Assembly (NCBI GenBank): GCA_013391385.1
Contig: JACBFI010000021.1
Location: 1 to 57,147, forward strand
Reading direction: 5' to 3'
Source of the DNA: Sediminibacterium sp. Gen4
Lineage (GTDB): Bacteria; Bacteroidota; Bacteroidia; Chitinophagales; Chitinophagaceae
DNA length: 57,147 nucleotides
Positions within the stretch are counted from its first letter, which is position 1, and the number at the start of each line of letters is the position of its first letter. Shown here one piece after another: positions 1,801 through 57,060 of the stretch. The position numbers and the translations under genes are program-made. Under the pieces are notes generated by a model. The model searched no databases and was not told the DNA's origin. It worked only from the letters and a program-made list of their open reading frames with translations.

Positions 1801-1858
1801 AAGCTGCTAGCTACCAGCTGCTAGCCTCTAGAAGCTAGCAGCTAGTGGCTAGTAGCTA
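1801..1858. repeat. Word-palindrome array (GCTAGNN words) between convergent genes
   Basis: Repeated words of the type GCTAGCA/GCTAGTG/GCTAGTA occur on the right arm and their complements on the left. The central AGCTGCTAGC (1816-1825) and GCTAGCAGCT (1834-1843) form a perfect 10-bp inverted repeat. It lies between the stop codons of the FKBP and photolyase genes, and the photolyase TAG stop (1856-1858) belongs to the array word. It possibly serves as a bidirectional terminator. Confidence 0.75.
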
Positions 1859-3166
1859 CTGCTTCAACGCTTTAGCATACACTTCCAACACCCTCTTCCT
1901 CGCCACATCATGCGGAACAATTGGCTTAGGGTAGCTGAATTCATTGAGCTCGGGGACCCATTTGCGGATGTATTTGAGATCTTTATCGAACTTTTCAGTT
2001 TGCAGGGCGGGATTGAATACTCGGAAATAAGGAGCGGCATCACAACCACTGCTGCTGGCCCATTGCCATCCGCCGTTATTGGCTGCTAGATCAAAGTCTA
2101 ATAGTTTCTGCGCGAAATAAGCTTCTCCCCAACGCCAGTCGATCAGTAAGTGTTTGGTGAGAAAAGAAGCTACAATCATGCGAACACGATTGTGCATATA
2201 TCCTGTGGTGTTGAGTTCACGCATACCCGCATCCACGATAGGGTATCCGGTGGTACCATTACACCAATGTTCAAATTCCGTTTCATTATTCCTCCATTCT
2301 ATGCGATCGTATTCTTTTTTGAACGACTCCCCTTTTCCTACATGCGGGAAATGCCAGAGGATGGCATGATAAAAATCTCTCCAGATCAATTCATTCACAT
2401 AGGTATCATTCAACGACAATGCACGTGCTGCCAGTTGTCGAATACTCACCGTTCCAAAACGCAGATGCACACCCATTTTGGAAGTACCATTCTCCAATGC
2501 AGGAAAATCTCTGTTGGCACTGTATTGCTTGATGATACTCTCTTGTAATTGTTTACTCGGAAAAGGTAGATCCACTGCTATAAAACCCATCGATTGCAAT
2601 GATGGAATTTCTTTGATCGACTGCTTATAAAAATGCGCATAGTATTTTTCAACCGGATACGATTTTACATGAAAGGGTTTCAGTGCCGCTCTCCATTTTC
2701 TTCCATAAGGTGAAAACACCGTGTAAGGTTTTCCATCATCTTTCACTACTTCCGATTTTTCAAAGATCACCTGGTCTTTATAAGTTTGGAAACCCACTCC
2801 TTTGGATTGCAAGAAAGCAGCGATCGCATCATCTCTCTCTTTCGCATAAGGTTCATAATCGTGATTGGTGAAAACGGTTTCGATATCATAGACCTCAGTC
2901 AACTGTTTGTATACATCCATCGGAAAACCATAATACACTTCCAGACTGCTTCCCATGGATGCCAATTGCGCTTGCATTTCCATAAGTGCTGCATGAATAA
3001 ATTCCACACGACGATCTGCTTTGTCTTCGAGTTGATCCAGAATATTCCGATCAAAAATGAATATGGGTAATACCGGAACACCTGTTCTCAGTGCATGGTA
3101 CAAAGCTGCATTGTCTGTTAAGCGAAGGTCCCTGCGGAACCACATGACCTGTATGCGGGGTTTCAT
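1856..3166 (-). CDS. phrB: Deoxyribodipyrimidine photolyase (class I, cryptochrome/photolyase family)
   Basis: A 436-residue flavoprotein that repairs UV-induced pyrimidine dimers using blue light. The N-terminal alpha/beta antenna domain starts MWFRRDLRLTDNAAL. The C-terminal FAD/DNA-binding domain carries MGVHLRFGTVSIRQL, ELIWRDFYHAIL, the TGYPIVDAGMRELNTTGYMH signature, RMIVASFLTKHLLIDWRWG and NGGWQWASSSGCDAAPYFR. Length and order are normal for class I photolyases; a CRY-DASH role is less likely but cannot be excluded by eye. It is transcribed alone and converges on the FKBP gene across a word-palindrome array. Confidence 0.93.
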   Translation of the reverse strand: MKPRIQVMWFRRDLRLTDNAALYHALRTGVPVLPIFIFDRNILDQLEDKADRRVEFIHAALMEMQAQLASMGSSLEVYYGFPMDVYKQLTEVYDIETVFTNHDYEPYAKERDDAIAAFLQSKGVGFQTYKDQVIFEKSEVVKDDGKPYTVFSPYGRKWRAALKPFHVKSYPVEKYYAHFYKQSIKEIPSLQSMGFIAVDLPFPSKQLQESIIKQYSANRDFPALENGTSKMGVHLRFGTVSIRQLAARALSLNDTYVNELIWRDFYHAILWHFPHVGKGESFKKEYDRIEWRNNETEFEHWCNGTTGYPIVDAGMRELNTTGYMHNRVRMIVASFLTKHLLIDWRWGEAYFAQKLLDFDLAANNGGWQWASSSGCDAAPYFRVFNPALQTEKFDKDLKYIRKWVPELNEFSYPKPIVPHDVARKRVLEVYAKALKQ

Positions 3167-3274
3167 GGAATTTTTGTTTTGTAACAGTTAGAGATTCGAA
3201 AAGTTTAGAGTGAGTCGTTTTAAAAAACAAACACACTAAACTTTTATTCTTTTCGCTCATGGCCGCTGGGCCTC

Positions 3275-3428
3275 GTCCCTACTACCGGGCTGCATTGGCC
3301 TCTGATCAAATCTGCTACGCATGATTTGATCTATCATCGCTTCGCTTGATACCGACCCCAATGAGGCCCGTCCGTAGGGACTGGTTAGGGGTGAAATACA
3401 CTATACCCTCATTTGTGCTACACCCTAA
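3275..3428. repeat. Structured intergenic element with nested inverted repeats
   Basis: The 28-base segments at 3275-3302 and 3354-3381 are imperfect inverted repeats (GTCCCTAC and GTAGGGAC at the ends, about three quarters of positions pairing). Inside them GATCAAAT/ATTTGATC form an 8-bp hairpin (3304-3311, 3323-3330). Next to them TTAGGGGTG (3385-3393) pairs with CACCCTAA (3421-3428). The block is GC-richer than its surroundings. The stop codon of the aminotransferase gene (3425-3427) lies in the last arm. It resembles a REP or MITE-like element; no transposase is nearby. Confidence 0.6.
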
Positions 3429-4288
3429 AATTCATTATTTGATTTCAAATCTGATTGCATCATTTTATATAGACGAATCGCTGTTGCGTTGGTGTAATGG
3501 CTATTGCCCAATTGCTTCACCCATTTGATGCCGTGGATGGCGTTGGTGAGGAATAGTTCTGAGGCTTCGAGTAATTCATCTACGGTGATCATGCCTTCTT
3601 CTACAGGTATATTTTCTTTTCGAATTAGGTGTAACAAATGTCTGCGCATGACACCGTTTACCGGACCTTCTGTTAACGCAGGCGTTTTGATACTCCCATC
3701 TTTCACGATGAATACATTGGCGATGGTGGCATCTGCCACTCGATTATCAGGATTCAGCAGGATGGCATCATTCAGGTGGTTTTCTTTTGCCCAAAGTGCA
3801 CCCATCACATAAGGCAGGTAATTATTGCTTTTGATGGATGAAAAAAGATCGGCTGTTTTTCGCGCGTCTTTATAGATATCGATCACCAATCCATTTTCAT
3901 TCAGTTCTTGTGTGGCTGTTTGTAAGGACCAGCTTTGGATCAAAAAATACGGGTAATGATTTTGTTCATCATAAATACCGCCATCACCTCTTGTCACGGT
4001 AACGCGCACTCTTGCTCTTTTGGCATGTCCGTTTTTTTCTACAACGGATAATATCTGTTTTTCTAACCAGCCGGCACTGTGATATCCTAGCTTTTTAAAG
4101 CGCAGTGTTTCTAAAGAGCTGAACAATCGTTCAAAATGGTAATCAGCGAGCATGATCTTTCCATTGAGTACTTTGATGGTCTCAAAACAACCATCACCAT
4201 ACCGATAAGATCTGTTATTGGGAGAGATCAGCAGTTTGTCTGAACGGAGTATTTGTCCGTCATAAAAAAGAAAATCGCCTTCACGCAT
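3425..4288 (-). CDS. Class IV aminotransferase, probable aminodeoxychorismate lyase
   Basis: A 287-residue PLP enzyme of fold type IV. An early RYGDGCFETIKV motif lies near residues 29-40, the catalytic-lysine segment SIKSNNYLPYVMGAL has Lys about 153, and DAILLNPDNRVADATIANVF is the family signature for cofactor phosphate binding. The C-terminal half has the GPVNGVMRRHLL pattern. PabC-type lyases (4-aminobenzoate for folate), branched-chain and D-amino-acid aminotransferases share this fold; the short N-terminus and GDGCFET pattern favour a PabC-like role, as inference only. It is divergently arranged with the NIF3 gene, 48 bases apart. Confidence 0.75.
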   Translation of the reverse strand: MREGDFLFYDGQILRSDKLLISPNNRSYRYGDGCFETIKVLNGKIMLADYHFERLFSSLETLRFKKLGYHSAGWLEKQILSVVEKNGHAKRARVRVTVTRGDGGIYDEQNHYPYFLIQSWSLQTATQELNENGLVIDIYKDARKTADLFSSIKSNNYLPYVMGALWAKENHLNDAILLNPDNRVADATIANVFIVKDGSIKTPALTEGPVNGVMRRHLLHLIRKENIPVEEGMITVDELLEASELFLTNAIHGIKWVKQLGNSHYTNATAIRLYKMMQSDLKSNNEF

Positions 4289-55432: not shown

Positions 55433-55434
55433 TA

Positions 55435-56922
55435 TCAAGTATCGAATTCGGCCGCCCCCACTGCTCTTTTCCAGCCTTTTGATAACTGTTGTCTTTGATC
55501 CTCTGAAATTTGAGGTGTGAATGTGCGATCCATTTGCCATTGTTGTTGTATGTCTTCAACGTTCTTCCAATATCCTACTGCCAATCCGGCTAAATACGCA
55601 GCACCCAAAGCAGTTGTTTCTGTCACAATCGGACGAACCACTTTTGCATTCAATACATCGCTTTGAAATTGCATCAATAGATTATTGGCAGTGGCTCCGC
55701 CATCTACTCTTAATTCTTTGATCGTGATACCGGCATCTGCTTCCATGGCTTTTAATACATCCATGGTTTGATAGGCAATGCTATCCAAGGAAGCGCGAGC
55801 AATATGTCCGCCGGTCGTTCCTCTGGTAATACCTGTAATCGTTCCTCTGGCATGCTGATTCCAATAAGGAGCACCTAAACCGGCAAAGGCAGGTACCACA
55901 TATACGCCATCGCTGTCTTTCACAGTAGCAGCCAATGTTTCTACTTCTTTGGATGAACGAATGATCTTTAATCCATCACGTAACCATTGCACTACGGCGC
56001 CGGCAATAAACACACTTCCTTCCAATGCATACTGTGTAATACCATTGATACTCCAAGCAATGGTAGTCAGCAAATGATTTTGAGAACGCACTGCTTTTTC
56101 TCCGGTATTCATCAACATAAAACAACCCGTGCCGTAGGTATTTTTAACCATGCCCGGTTGCGTACACAGTTGTCCAAACAAAGCTGCTTGCTGATCACCG
56201 GCAATACCGGCGATTGGAATATTGTGAGCAGTGAGAATATTCTGTGTATGTCCATATACCTCACTACTACTTTTTACTTGAGGTAAGATGGAAGCCGGTA
56301 TATTGAATAGTTGCAAAAGTTCCTTATCCCATGTCAAAGAATGAATATTGAATAACATGGTTCTGGAAGCGTTGGATACATCGGTAACATGTACCTGACC
56401 ATTGGTAAGTTTCCAGACCAGCCAGCTGTCGATGGTACCGAAACAGAGTTCGCCTTTTTCAGCTTTTGCCCTGGCTCCTTCCACATGGTCGAGGATCCAT
56501 TTCAATTTGGTAGCGGAGAAATAGGCATCAATGATCAAACCGGTTTTGGATTGAATCATTTGTGCATGTCCTGCCGCTTTTAGTTCATCGCAATACGCCG
56601 CTGTTCTTCTGTCTTGCCAAACGATGGCATGAAAGATGGGCATCCCGGTGTGTTTATCCCATACCACAGTAGTTTCTCGTTGATTGGTAATACCAATAGC
56701 TGCAATCTGTTGAATGGTCAATCCTGCCTTGGTCACTGCTTCTGCTGCAACACCCAACTGTGTACTCCATATTTCATTGGCATCATGTTCCACCCATCCG
56801 GGCTGCGGAAAAATTTGTTTGAATTCTTTCTGCGCTACAGAAATAATAGCACCTGTATGATCAAATACAATAGCCCTACTGCTAGTGGTTCCTTGGTCGA
56901 AGGATAGGATGTATTGTTGCAT
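55435..56922 (-). CDS. glpK: Glycerol kinase
   Basis: A 495-residue FGGY kinase phosphorylating glycerol. [17 protein letters not shown] is the N-terminal phosphate motif; [28 protein letters not shown] and [15 protein letters not shown] are the substrate and FGGY motifs; [16 protein letters not shown] and [20 protein letters not shown] with [20 protein letters not shown] follow. Full length. First of the glp genes on the minus strand. Confidence 0.96.
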
Positions 56923-56941
56923 AACGTAAGATAAGGAAGAT

Positions 56942-57060
56942 TCAAGAATGAAGAAACAGGGGACAAGAAAGGCTCAAGAAACAAGAAGACAAGACACAAG
57001 GAAGATTCAAGTTACAAGAAGACAAGACACAAGAAAGGTTCAAGTTGCCAAGACGCAAGT
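56942..57060. repeat. Direct-word array (CAAGAAAC/CAAGACAC words) upstream of glpK
   Basis: ACAAGAAGACAAGACACAAG occurs at 56981-57000 and 57014-57033, exact repeats 33 bases apart. Words CAAGAAA, CAAGACA and CAAGTTA run through the rest. The arms are direct, not inverted. It occupies the presumed promoter and leader region of glpK. Confidence 0.8.

Follow-up and report, generated by a model that had tools for sequence, protein, structure and literature searches.

Related repeat systems

In a survey of prokaryotic genomes, 7-nt units formed the commonest class of long simple repeats in most genomes (Mrazek 2007, as summarised in PMC4679880), and PMC4679880 itself describes TAACTGA repeats from Beggiatoaceae, Cyanobacteria and five Bacteroidetes. 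Here we analysed intergenic hairpins with arms of tandem 7- to 8-nt words in a window of 57,147 nucleotides from Sediminibacterium sp. Gen4, which is one complete contig (JACBFI010000021.1; C15) of a genome of 3.52 Mb in 59 contigs (98% complete), together with further stretches of this genome and its relatives. Named MraY relatives put the genome close to Sediminibacterium (Chitinophagaceae). Like the repeats described in PMC4679880, the hairpins consist of tandem heptamers in gaps, at many loci per genome and patchily distributed among relatives, and they show the mark of the long-simple-repeat class (7-nt), an excess over chance of tandem units of 5-11 nt. TAACTGA repeats, again by PMC4679880, sit close before start codons, whereas the present arrays have many words and inverted arms and lie behind stop codons (medians of 44 nt from starts and 6 nt from stops). 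A search of 812 kb gave no TAACTGA doublet; judged by the tested features, the arrays are not a TAACTGA-type repeat.

Cyanobacteria contain short tandemly repeated repetitive (STRR) heptamers, and the stem arms of the Nostoc tRNA-Leu intron are built from degenerate heptamers. The present hairpins share such heptamer-built stem arms, but in those cases the heptamers occur at one intron locus or as direct arrays, and we know of no dispersal of whole hairpins there. We know of no settled explanation for the prevalence of 7-nt units in the long simple repeats of bacteria.

Repetitive extragenic palindromes (REPs) are palindromes of 20-40 bp tagged GTAG or CGTC, according to PMC3733652, and belong with REP-associated tyrosine transposases (RAYTs). 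The present hairpins are likewise short, intergenic and multi-copy, but their arms are longer and periodic, several word families occur, and arrays do not flank the gene at the nine of 14 Y1 transposase matches inspected, apart from one array about 1.1 kb away. No common end tag was noticed by eye in the listed hairpins, for which no motif search was made. Template switching, which homogenises the arms of inverted repeats (quasipalindromes; PMC8604942, PMC7202029 and PMC4060949), offers a likeness in arm homogenisation, but it is a mutation process and not an element family. In Porphyromonas gingivalis, also a member of the Bacteroidota, a miniature inverted-repeat transposable element (MITE) with an internal minisatellite carries tandem repeats inside an inverted-repeat element (PMC4596501); by the opening of its abstract, it is a single MITE. 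The titles and abstract openings listed in our literature searches yielded no hairpins of such design in Bacteroidota, and no hairpin copying, fixed arm order or word swapping. The design is nevertheless less unfamiliar than the original prediction, made from the window alone, took it to be, as heptamers were already an abundant class of long simple repeats (PMC4679880).

The hairpins combine two known kinds of sequence, heptamer repeats and dispersed palindromes; membership of the REPs or of the intrinsic terminators has so far found no support. The hairpin population is real, unusual and fast-evolving. We put at about even chances the explanation that these are dispersed, mostly selfish hairpins, about 50-200 bp long, intergenic and mostly just behind genes, with arms grown by slippage and matched by template switching at the DNA level.

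Abundance, period and word families

Genes were defined as mechanical open reading frames (ORFs) of at least 90 amino acids, or at least 80 amino acids for the array count in the window plus 20 stretches sampled from this genome. Nine of these 20 stretches had been picked because GATGTC was present. The sample referred to below as not chosen comprises 590 kb of the same genome and excludes these nine stretches and the window; a survey of long stems (647 kb) excludes only the nine stretches.

In the not-chosen sample, gaps between genes contained 87 tandem arrays, compared with 1.2 in dinucleotide shuffles, so that chance in gaps of equal composition does not account for the arrays, as had been predicted. 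Period 7 contributed 69 arrays and period 8 another seven (76 of the 87), while periods 5, 6, 9, 10, 11 and 12 gave 0, 1, 3, 1, 2 and 4, or 11 together. The window plus 20 stretches held 85 gap arrays, of which 70 had period 7 and 10 had period 8, with well below one per shuffled set. When the search started from stems, 23 of 40 long stems had arms of period 7 or 8, versus 0.6 for shuffled arms. Hence, periods 7 and 8 stand out, as would be expected if the process behind the arrays favoured one step length. Avoidance of triplet periods is not enough by itself, because it gives 7 no advantage over 10 or 11.

Mechanical ORFs of the 590 kb contained 31 arrays, and in 18 of these the period was 7 or 8. 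A larger and partly chosen sample held 27 in-ORF arrays; 19 lay within 125 nt of the ORF start, mostly where over-long starts crossed a stop-less arm, and seven lay deep within ORFs. Arrays were present in 56 of 315 gaps of at least 40 bp and, with corrected starts, in 62 of the 334 gaps that measured 30-1500 bp. The share is thus about a fifth, and not most gene junctions as first claimed.

A small vocabulary recurs over the genome (GATGTCN, GTGANNN/GTCANNN, AGCTNNT, AAGCTNN, ACAAGNN, GTCCATN, TTTGAAAA, TTTGATTT and GGTGATCN), and several word families coexist under the one design, with its word differing by site, that had been recognised in the window. Sharing of words between distant loci is wider than had been proposed: GATGTC triplets gave 74 overlapping matches in this genome, and none in the reversed control. 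The proposed constant core with a variable last base describes GATGTCN, whose spacer base was T in 41, G in 26 and A in one of 68 units, but not the GTGA words, which vary at up to three letters.

The order of the two arms was nearly invariant. In 812 kb, the ratio of W-W' to W'-W was 11:0 for GATGTC, 20:0 for GTGA, 4:0 for GGTRATC, 4:0 for TTTGATTT, 2:0 for TTTGAAAA, 5:0 for ACAAG, 8:1 for AAGCT, 5:1 for GTCCAT and 0:3 for TTTTGA (i.e. GTCAAAA leads); these cores were picked after the arrays had been read, GTGAAA and GTGAAT are nested within GTGA, and CATGGAC (0:1) is GTCCATG reversed. The sister species discussed below gave 9:0 for GTGA. Because a palindrome reads identically on both strands, the fixed order is a real property, and it is predicted by descent of hairpins from hairpins and not by independent fold-backs.

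Comparison with the sister species

Genome G040 belongs to a sister species, with a DNA identity of 82.7-94.0% in long matches, and shares the words of this genome, with 46 GATGTC matches. We compared 13 array junctions with alignable flanks; three of the 11 junctions in a first set had no ortholog, two of seven in a second set had no array and were left out, and the junction at position 1808 of stretch L004 was counted apart. The same word, with unit changes or substitutions, occurred at seven of the 13 (7796, 15214, 22646, 38357 and 49551 in the window, 863 in L020 and 16492 in L156). At three the core was kept and the variable letters had drifted (27169 in the window, 1833 in L018 and 8005 in L019). 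At L004 1808 the sister has an array, and this genome has a short imperfect stem without an array by our detector.

At the two remaining junctions a different word lay between conserved flanks, which is one of the outcomes that a comparison of orthologous junctions had been proposed to look for. Position 13742 has a 23-bp GATGTC stem here and a 32-bp stem of TTTGATTT/GATCTGTG words in the sister; the identity of the two hairpins is 0.60, against 0.52 for shuffled sequence. At 14081 the sister holds a GTCGATA/GTCCATG hairpin in place of the AGCTTAT type. That a junction retains a hairpin while its word changes can be explained by many word families coexisting and substituting for one another.

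The sister's hairpin at the 13742 ortholog is identical at 72 of 75 positions, loop included, to its hairpin at the 22646 ortholog, although the tested flanks of these two loci resemble each other no more than shuffled sequence does. Two hairpins on different contigs of this genome (L019 and L021) match at 141 of 155 positions over a stretch that takes in a terminator-like hairpin within the loop, and 600 nt upstream showed no similarity above shuffles (the comparison is upstream only, as the L021 contig ends in the array). Such identity between loci with unrelated flanks implies that whole hairpins were copied, which goes further than the copying of arms first suggested. The family would have spread in this way, by copying of the entire hairpin with its loop from gene end to gene end, as at these two pairs of loci. 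The earlier argument, that mobility would hold such a palindrome family to a single sequence, is not supported, since stems can be near-identical within a word family and several families coexist.

The arms themselves may grow and shrink in steps of 7 or 8 nt by slipped-strand replication, to which one-unit differences between the species point; at 15214, for instance, the sister has one extra 7-nt unit in each arm. Such differences also suit a rival explanation, in which polymerase slippage produced ordinary heptamer repeats, the second arms arose by chance or local fold-back, and nothing moved between loci. The general abundance of heptamers noted above and the local homogeneity of GATGTC arrays (0 of 1000 pooled shuffles reached the observed value; 167 of 1000 within-array shuffles did) fit slippage as well. 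Slippage on its own, however, fails to account for the fixed arm order, the genome-wide words, the near-identical looped hairpins at separate loci and the word swaps, so that this explanation was already disfavoured and we regard it as improbable.

A palindrome of a second, nested kind, about 20 bp long and G+C-rich (TCCGNAGGACTCC..GGAG type), occurs in or beside hairpins at 22650-22675 in the window, about 1250-1280 in L018 and about 2180-2200 in L020, and is absent from the orthologous places in the sister. In the hairpin at 22646..22730 it sits within the 5' arm in this genome, and the sister lacks it.

Complementarity of the arms

In 38 GTGA-type hairpins from four genomes, none of 500 partner swaps reached the match of the arms with their own partners, and five of 500 shuffles of the unit order within arms did so. 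The paired unit change at 15214 and the long perfect stems also suggest that the arms are kept complementary by template switching during replication.

Stems at 13742 and 15214 contained no G-U pair among 100 pairs in both species (23, 32, 22 and 23 pairs). The array gaps folded more strongly in the sense direction in 39 cases and more weakly in 37 (n = 77), i.e. without preference for one RNA strand. Because no sense/antisense difference was seen and the 100 pairs were free of G-U, copying between arms at the DNA level is the simpler account; the fold comparison, which has low power, gave no sign of selection at the RNA level.

Position relative to genes

Distances to stop and start codons were measured with corrected ORF starts, as stop-less second arms are otherwise swallowed by over-long ORFs. 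In the whole sample, arrays began a median of 6 nt past the stop codon (64 of 118 sides below 10 nt), and the median distance to a start codon was 44 nt (13 of 98 sides below 10 nt). The not-chosen part gave 9 nt (32 of 64) and 53 nt (5 of 60), respectively. With uncorrected ORFs, 36 of 64 arrays in same-direction gaps lay within 10 nt of the stop, compared with 17.2 under uniform placement. This anchoring is partly built in, because an array that contains a stop codon partly sets the end of its ORF.

The 73 anchored arrays had a mean purine share of 0.615 in the sense direction, versus 0.487 in array-less flanks, and their first 30 nt were more than half purine in 56 cases and less in 14. They closed 2.07 reading frames in sense, 1.12 in antisense and 1.55-1.85 in shuffles. 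As array-less 3' flanks already close 1.83 frames (n = 314), this effect is small. A universal stop-codon word was ruled out, as ACAAGNN arrays have no stop and GATGTCN arrays have one only with the T spacer. Trends elsewhere, measured with uncorrected ORFs, were similar with other words: purine shares above versus below half were 15/2 in G040, 13/2 in G423, 9/1 in G332, 4/1 in G340, 4/0 in G033 and 20/3 in the division loci of the remaining relatives, and median stop distances ranged from 0.5 to 17 nt, except for 58.5 nt in G190 (two sides).

These data on position and polarity give the best support to the main rival explanation, namely that the hairpins function at 3' ends, as terminators, protectors of transcript ends or frame-independent translation stops, with a selected stem and a free sequence. 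Such a role would also suit two further findings: in each of the three gene orientations, gaps with arrays (35, 9 and 4) fold more strongly than gaps that lack them, and in the whole sample arrays are more frequent in convergent than in divergent gaps (23 of 74 versus 13 of 91, p 0.013). The convergent excess, however, was gone in the not-chosen part (10 of 48 versus 8 of 57, p 0.44). Moreover, arrays also lie within an apparently single division/cell-wall operon (gene names in this cluster follow gene order, not annotation), the sixteen sampled congeners are almost free of arrays, no RNA-strand preference appeared (at low power), stop-containing arrays inflate the anchoring, and the number of frames closed is barely above that of array-less flanks. 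On balance, we consider a gene-end function rather unlikely. For dispersed, selfish hairpins, persistence would require only that they are tolerated at gene ends, and a beneficial role would not be needed.

Strong stems stood behind genes, by eye usually without a T run, and some loops enclosed a separate terminator-like hairpin. Heptamer arms or arrays enclose or adjoin a terminator-like hairpin with a T run at L008 9791-9974, L019 6730-6927, L020 7945-8113 and L021 8409-8599.

Distribution among relatives and candidate drivers

In 16 congeners (18 stretches, 349 kb) we found one period-7/8 gap array. Array density was thus 0.3 per 100 kb in the sampled congeners and 12.9 here, a roughly 40-fold difference. 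Long stems followed the same pattern, with 40 in 647 kb here and one in 389 kb from array-poor congeners. The congeners G423 and G190, G332 and G340 from other genera, and G033 from the same order did have arrays, mostly with other words. Because stretches were partly picked on matches (largely from contigs with array matches in G040; on listed GTGA matches for five of five in G423, four of five in G340, and one each in G332 and G190), the array densities of these five genomes are biased upward; the stretches of G033 were not so picked.

GATGTC occurred in 12 of 294 genomes of the family, including this one; G622 had 27 matches (with a C spacer in ten listed), G565 had nine and the other nine genomes one or two. 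It occurred in none of 24 congeners and none of 15 order-level genomes. The GTGA core matched 126 of 395 Bacteroidota genomes, but the reversed control also matches many, because GTGA arrays with an internal AGTG fit it, so that this survey shows the spread of the core and not an array count. At the division-cluster loci of 29 relatives, inspected by eye, the same junction carried hairpins of differing words in some species and none in others. Conserved terminators without arrays, the pattern that would have spoken against the original prediction, were not what these junctions showed. In Sediminibacterium magnilacihabitans (L045), several of these division-cluster junctions hold palindromes of another family (CGTCATCCCGAGCGTAGCCGAGGG type), and a GTGCGACGCAAC motif occurs at some of them in L041-L043, L046 and L077.

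From this all-or-little distribution, a genetic factor seems to decide whether a lineage carries hairpins. A more specific variant of our explanation holds that the hairpins are mobile elements defined by shape (periodic arms of 7-8 nt, purine-rich arm first), which are copied whole onto gene ends and overwrite each other, with one factor switching them on or off between sister species. We regard this variant as possible but doubtful.

Among 19 genomes (drafts), RVT_1 (PF00078) matched only in G190, G010 and G017, and in none of six array-bearing genomes (this genome, G000, and G040, G423, G332, G340 and G033). A reverse transcriptase as writer of the arrays is disfavoured on this basis, within the reach of PF00078 and of draft genomes. 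Units with a core plus a variable base do resemble some telomere repeats, but, given these six genomes, a telomerase-like reverse transcriptase seems an extremely remote prospect. Loss of SbcCD as a switch was rejected: SbcD was above the cut-off in one of 19 genomes (G015, array-poor) and in 13 of 19 with weaker matches included, and its general absence does not separate array-rich from array-poor genomes. Ku end joining was set aside with matches in only two of 19 (G340 and G033).

A Y1 (HUH) transposase of the kind associated with REPs was considered as the mover of the palindromes. Y1_Tnp was present in all five of the densest-array genomes as sampled (G000, G040, G423, G332 and G033) and in one of 12 array-poor congeners, but the array-poor genomes tested were mostly smaller, and no match was found in array-bearing G340 and G190. 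The flanks of nine of the 14 matches were inspected. An array of period 7 or 8 stood within 1.5 kb of only one of them, in this genome, at a distance of about 1.1 kb, and several flanks had other palindromes that are rich in G+C and, in this genome, of CCGGACTNAAGTCCGG type. Furthermore, the one Y1 gene of this genome would have to serve many word families. With the association weak and other palindromes at the flanks, we think it unlikely that a Y1 transposase moved the hairpins. The only Y1 match of this genome, at L234 4000-4700, has G+C-rich palindromes upstream (CCGGACTTTAGTCCGG type), and the two apparently form a REP-like system separate from the arrays.

Hairpin sites in the window

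The sites listed for the window were tested against 30 shuffles for stems and 100 shuffles for the tandem score. Inverted arms exceeded every shuffle at 12 of 15 sites, which bears out that most arrays have inverted arms; the others were 38357 (a single arm), 38718 (two non-complementary words) and 56942 (a direct array only). Tandem arrays exceeded every shuffle at 11 of 15, and fell short at 13742 and 22676, where the arms are too short for the score, and at 14081 and 56942, where units are imperfect. Nine sites had both features (1801, 7796, 15214, 27171, 39689, 49556, 51319, 52544 and 55353, the last with period 10). Tandem Repeats Finder reported arrays of 7 or 8 bases at most listed sites, and Rfam gave no match in the window at the gathering threshold.

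Directly after a stop codon, an AGCTNNT/TAGCNNC hairpin of period 7 occupies 1802..1858 (stem score 16 versus a shuffle maximum of 9, tandem score 17.5 versus 14, fold z -6.5). In the GATGTCN hairpin at 7792..7976, the 5' arm array spans 7792-7862 and the GACATC units of the 3' arm extend to 7976; the sister species shows an expansion of the A variant and a shortened second arm. The perfect 23-bp stem of the GATGTCN hairpin at 13742..13797 was examined by stem and fold tests and sister comparison, and the AGCTTAT-type hairpin at 14075..14135 by stem test and sister comparison. Stem, fold and sister comparisons were also made for the GTGAAAN hairpin at 15213..15265, the TTTGATTT hairpin of period 8/15 at 22646..22730 and the GTGAATN hairpin at 27169..27222, which lies between two cell-wall/division genes that we take, from gene order, to be ftsQ and ftsA.

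At 38358..38399 a single GTGAATN/GTGAAAN array on the minus strand, without a second arm, overlaps the stop codon of the upstream gene (site test, sister comparison), and at 38718..38782 the site test covered two adjoining arrays of the mutually non-complementary words AGTTGAC and ATTCACA. Two features of period 8 have TTTGAAAA words: a hairpin with a long loop at 39689..39836 (arms 39689-39724 and 39785-39820) and arrays with a short inverted arm at 49551..49648, which differ by one unit from the sister. Tandem Repeats Finder and the site test both support the GGTGATCN/GGTAATCN hairpin of period 8 at 51316..51456, whose word recurs at L009 16313 and L017 17179, the composite GATGTCN hairpin with CTATGGA units in its loop at 52545..52766, and the AACTCTGTG hairpin of period 10 at 55355..55429. 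Tandem Repeats Finder further detected a CAAGAAN-type array with indels at 56933..57044 (period 7/15/33) and a TTTCACC direct array at 53602..53639, the latter additional to the sites first listed. The word GGTGATC of 51316-51456 is complementary to GAUCACC, the 3' tail sequence of bacterial 16S rRNA; this may be coincidence.

Two ORFs at 9650-12912 resemble ATP-binding proteins, as read from sequence, with a 27-bp tandem repeat (TTTGACAATTAATAATTGTCA type, 9662-9737) upstream. This pair and the repeat are missing from the sister species, whose contig C550 joins 9649 to 12912. A further dispersed repeat (CTCTACGAGAGACGTCTGCGAGGAACC type) occurs at 1-300 near the contig start and at about 20100-20240.

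Discussion

Several observations weigh against dispersed, mostly selfish hairpins with slippage-grown and template-matched arms. A purely selfish model does not lead one to expect the anchoring at stops, the sense polarity or the purine bias. No driver was found: reverse transcriptase, SbcCD and Ku do not explain which genomes are array-rich and which array-poor, and Y1 transposases co-occur with arrays but have other palindromes. Long identity between loci, loops included, was seen in only two pairs of hairpins. None of the 13 junctions offered a clean filled-versus-empty site, L004 1808 being the nearest; as no insertion was caught among them, hairpins may have been rewritten in place, and the word swaps give no order of older and newer words or source copy.

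Other points concern the arms. The partner-swap test draws its GTGA-type hairpins from four genomes whose words differ in part, and one arm is common to two of the hairpins. For eight GATG-type hairpins there was no excess for their own partners, as the observed match was reached in 274 of 500 swaps and in 414 of 500 shuffles of unit order. Neighbouring units of GTGA arrays were no more alike than shuffled units, whereas simple slippage would predict likeness. When all seven folded junctions are pooled, G-U pairs make up 28 of 411, so that drift at the RNA level is possible outside 13742 and 15214. The array-less control for the sense/antisense fold gave no significant difference either (127 versus 106, n = 239, p 0.19), so that this comparison has low power.

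Array densities that differ about 40-fold among the sampled species of one genus, together with differing words at orthologous junctions, make the origin, copying and function of these hairpins testable in close relatives. If one hairpin can indeed overwrite another, conservation of sequence would be a misleading guide to the intergenic structures that are maintained.

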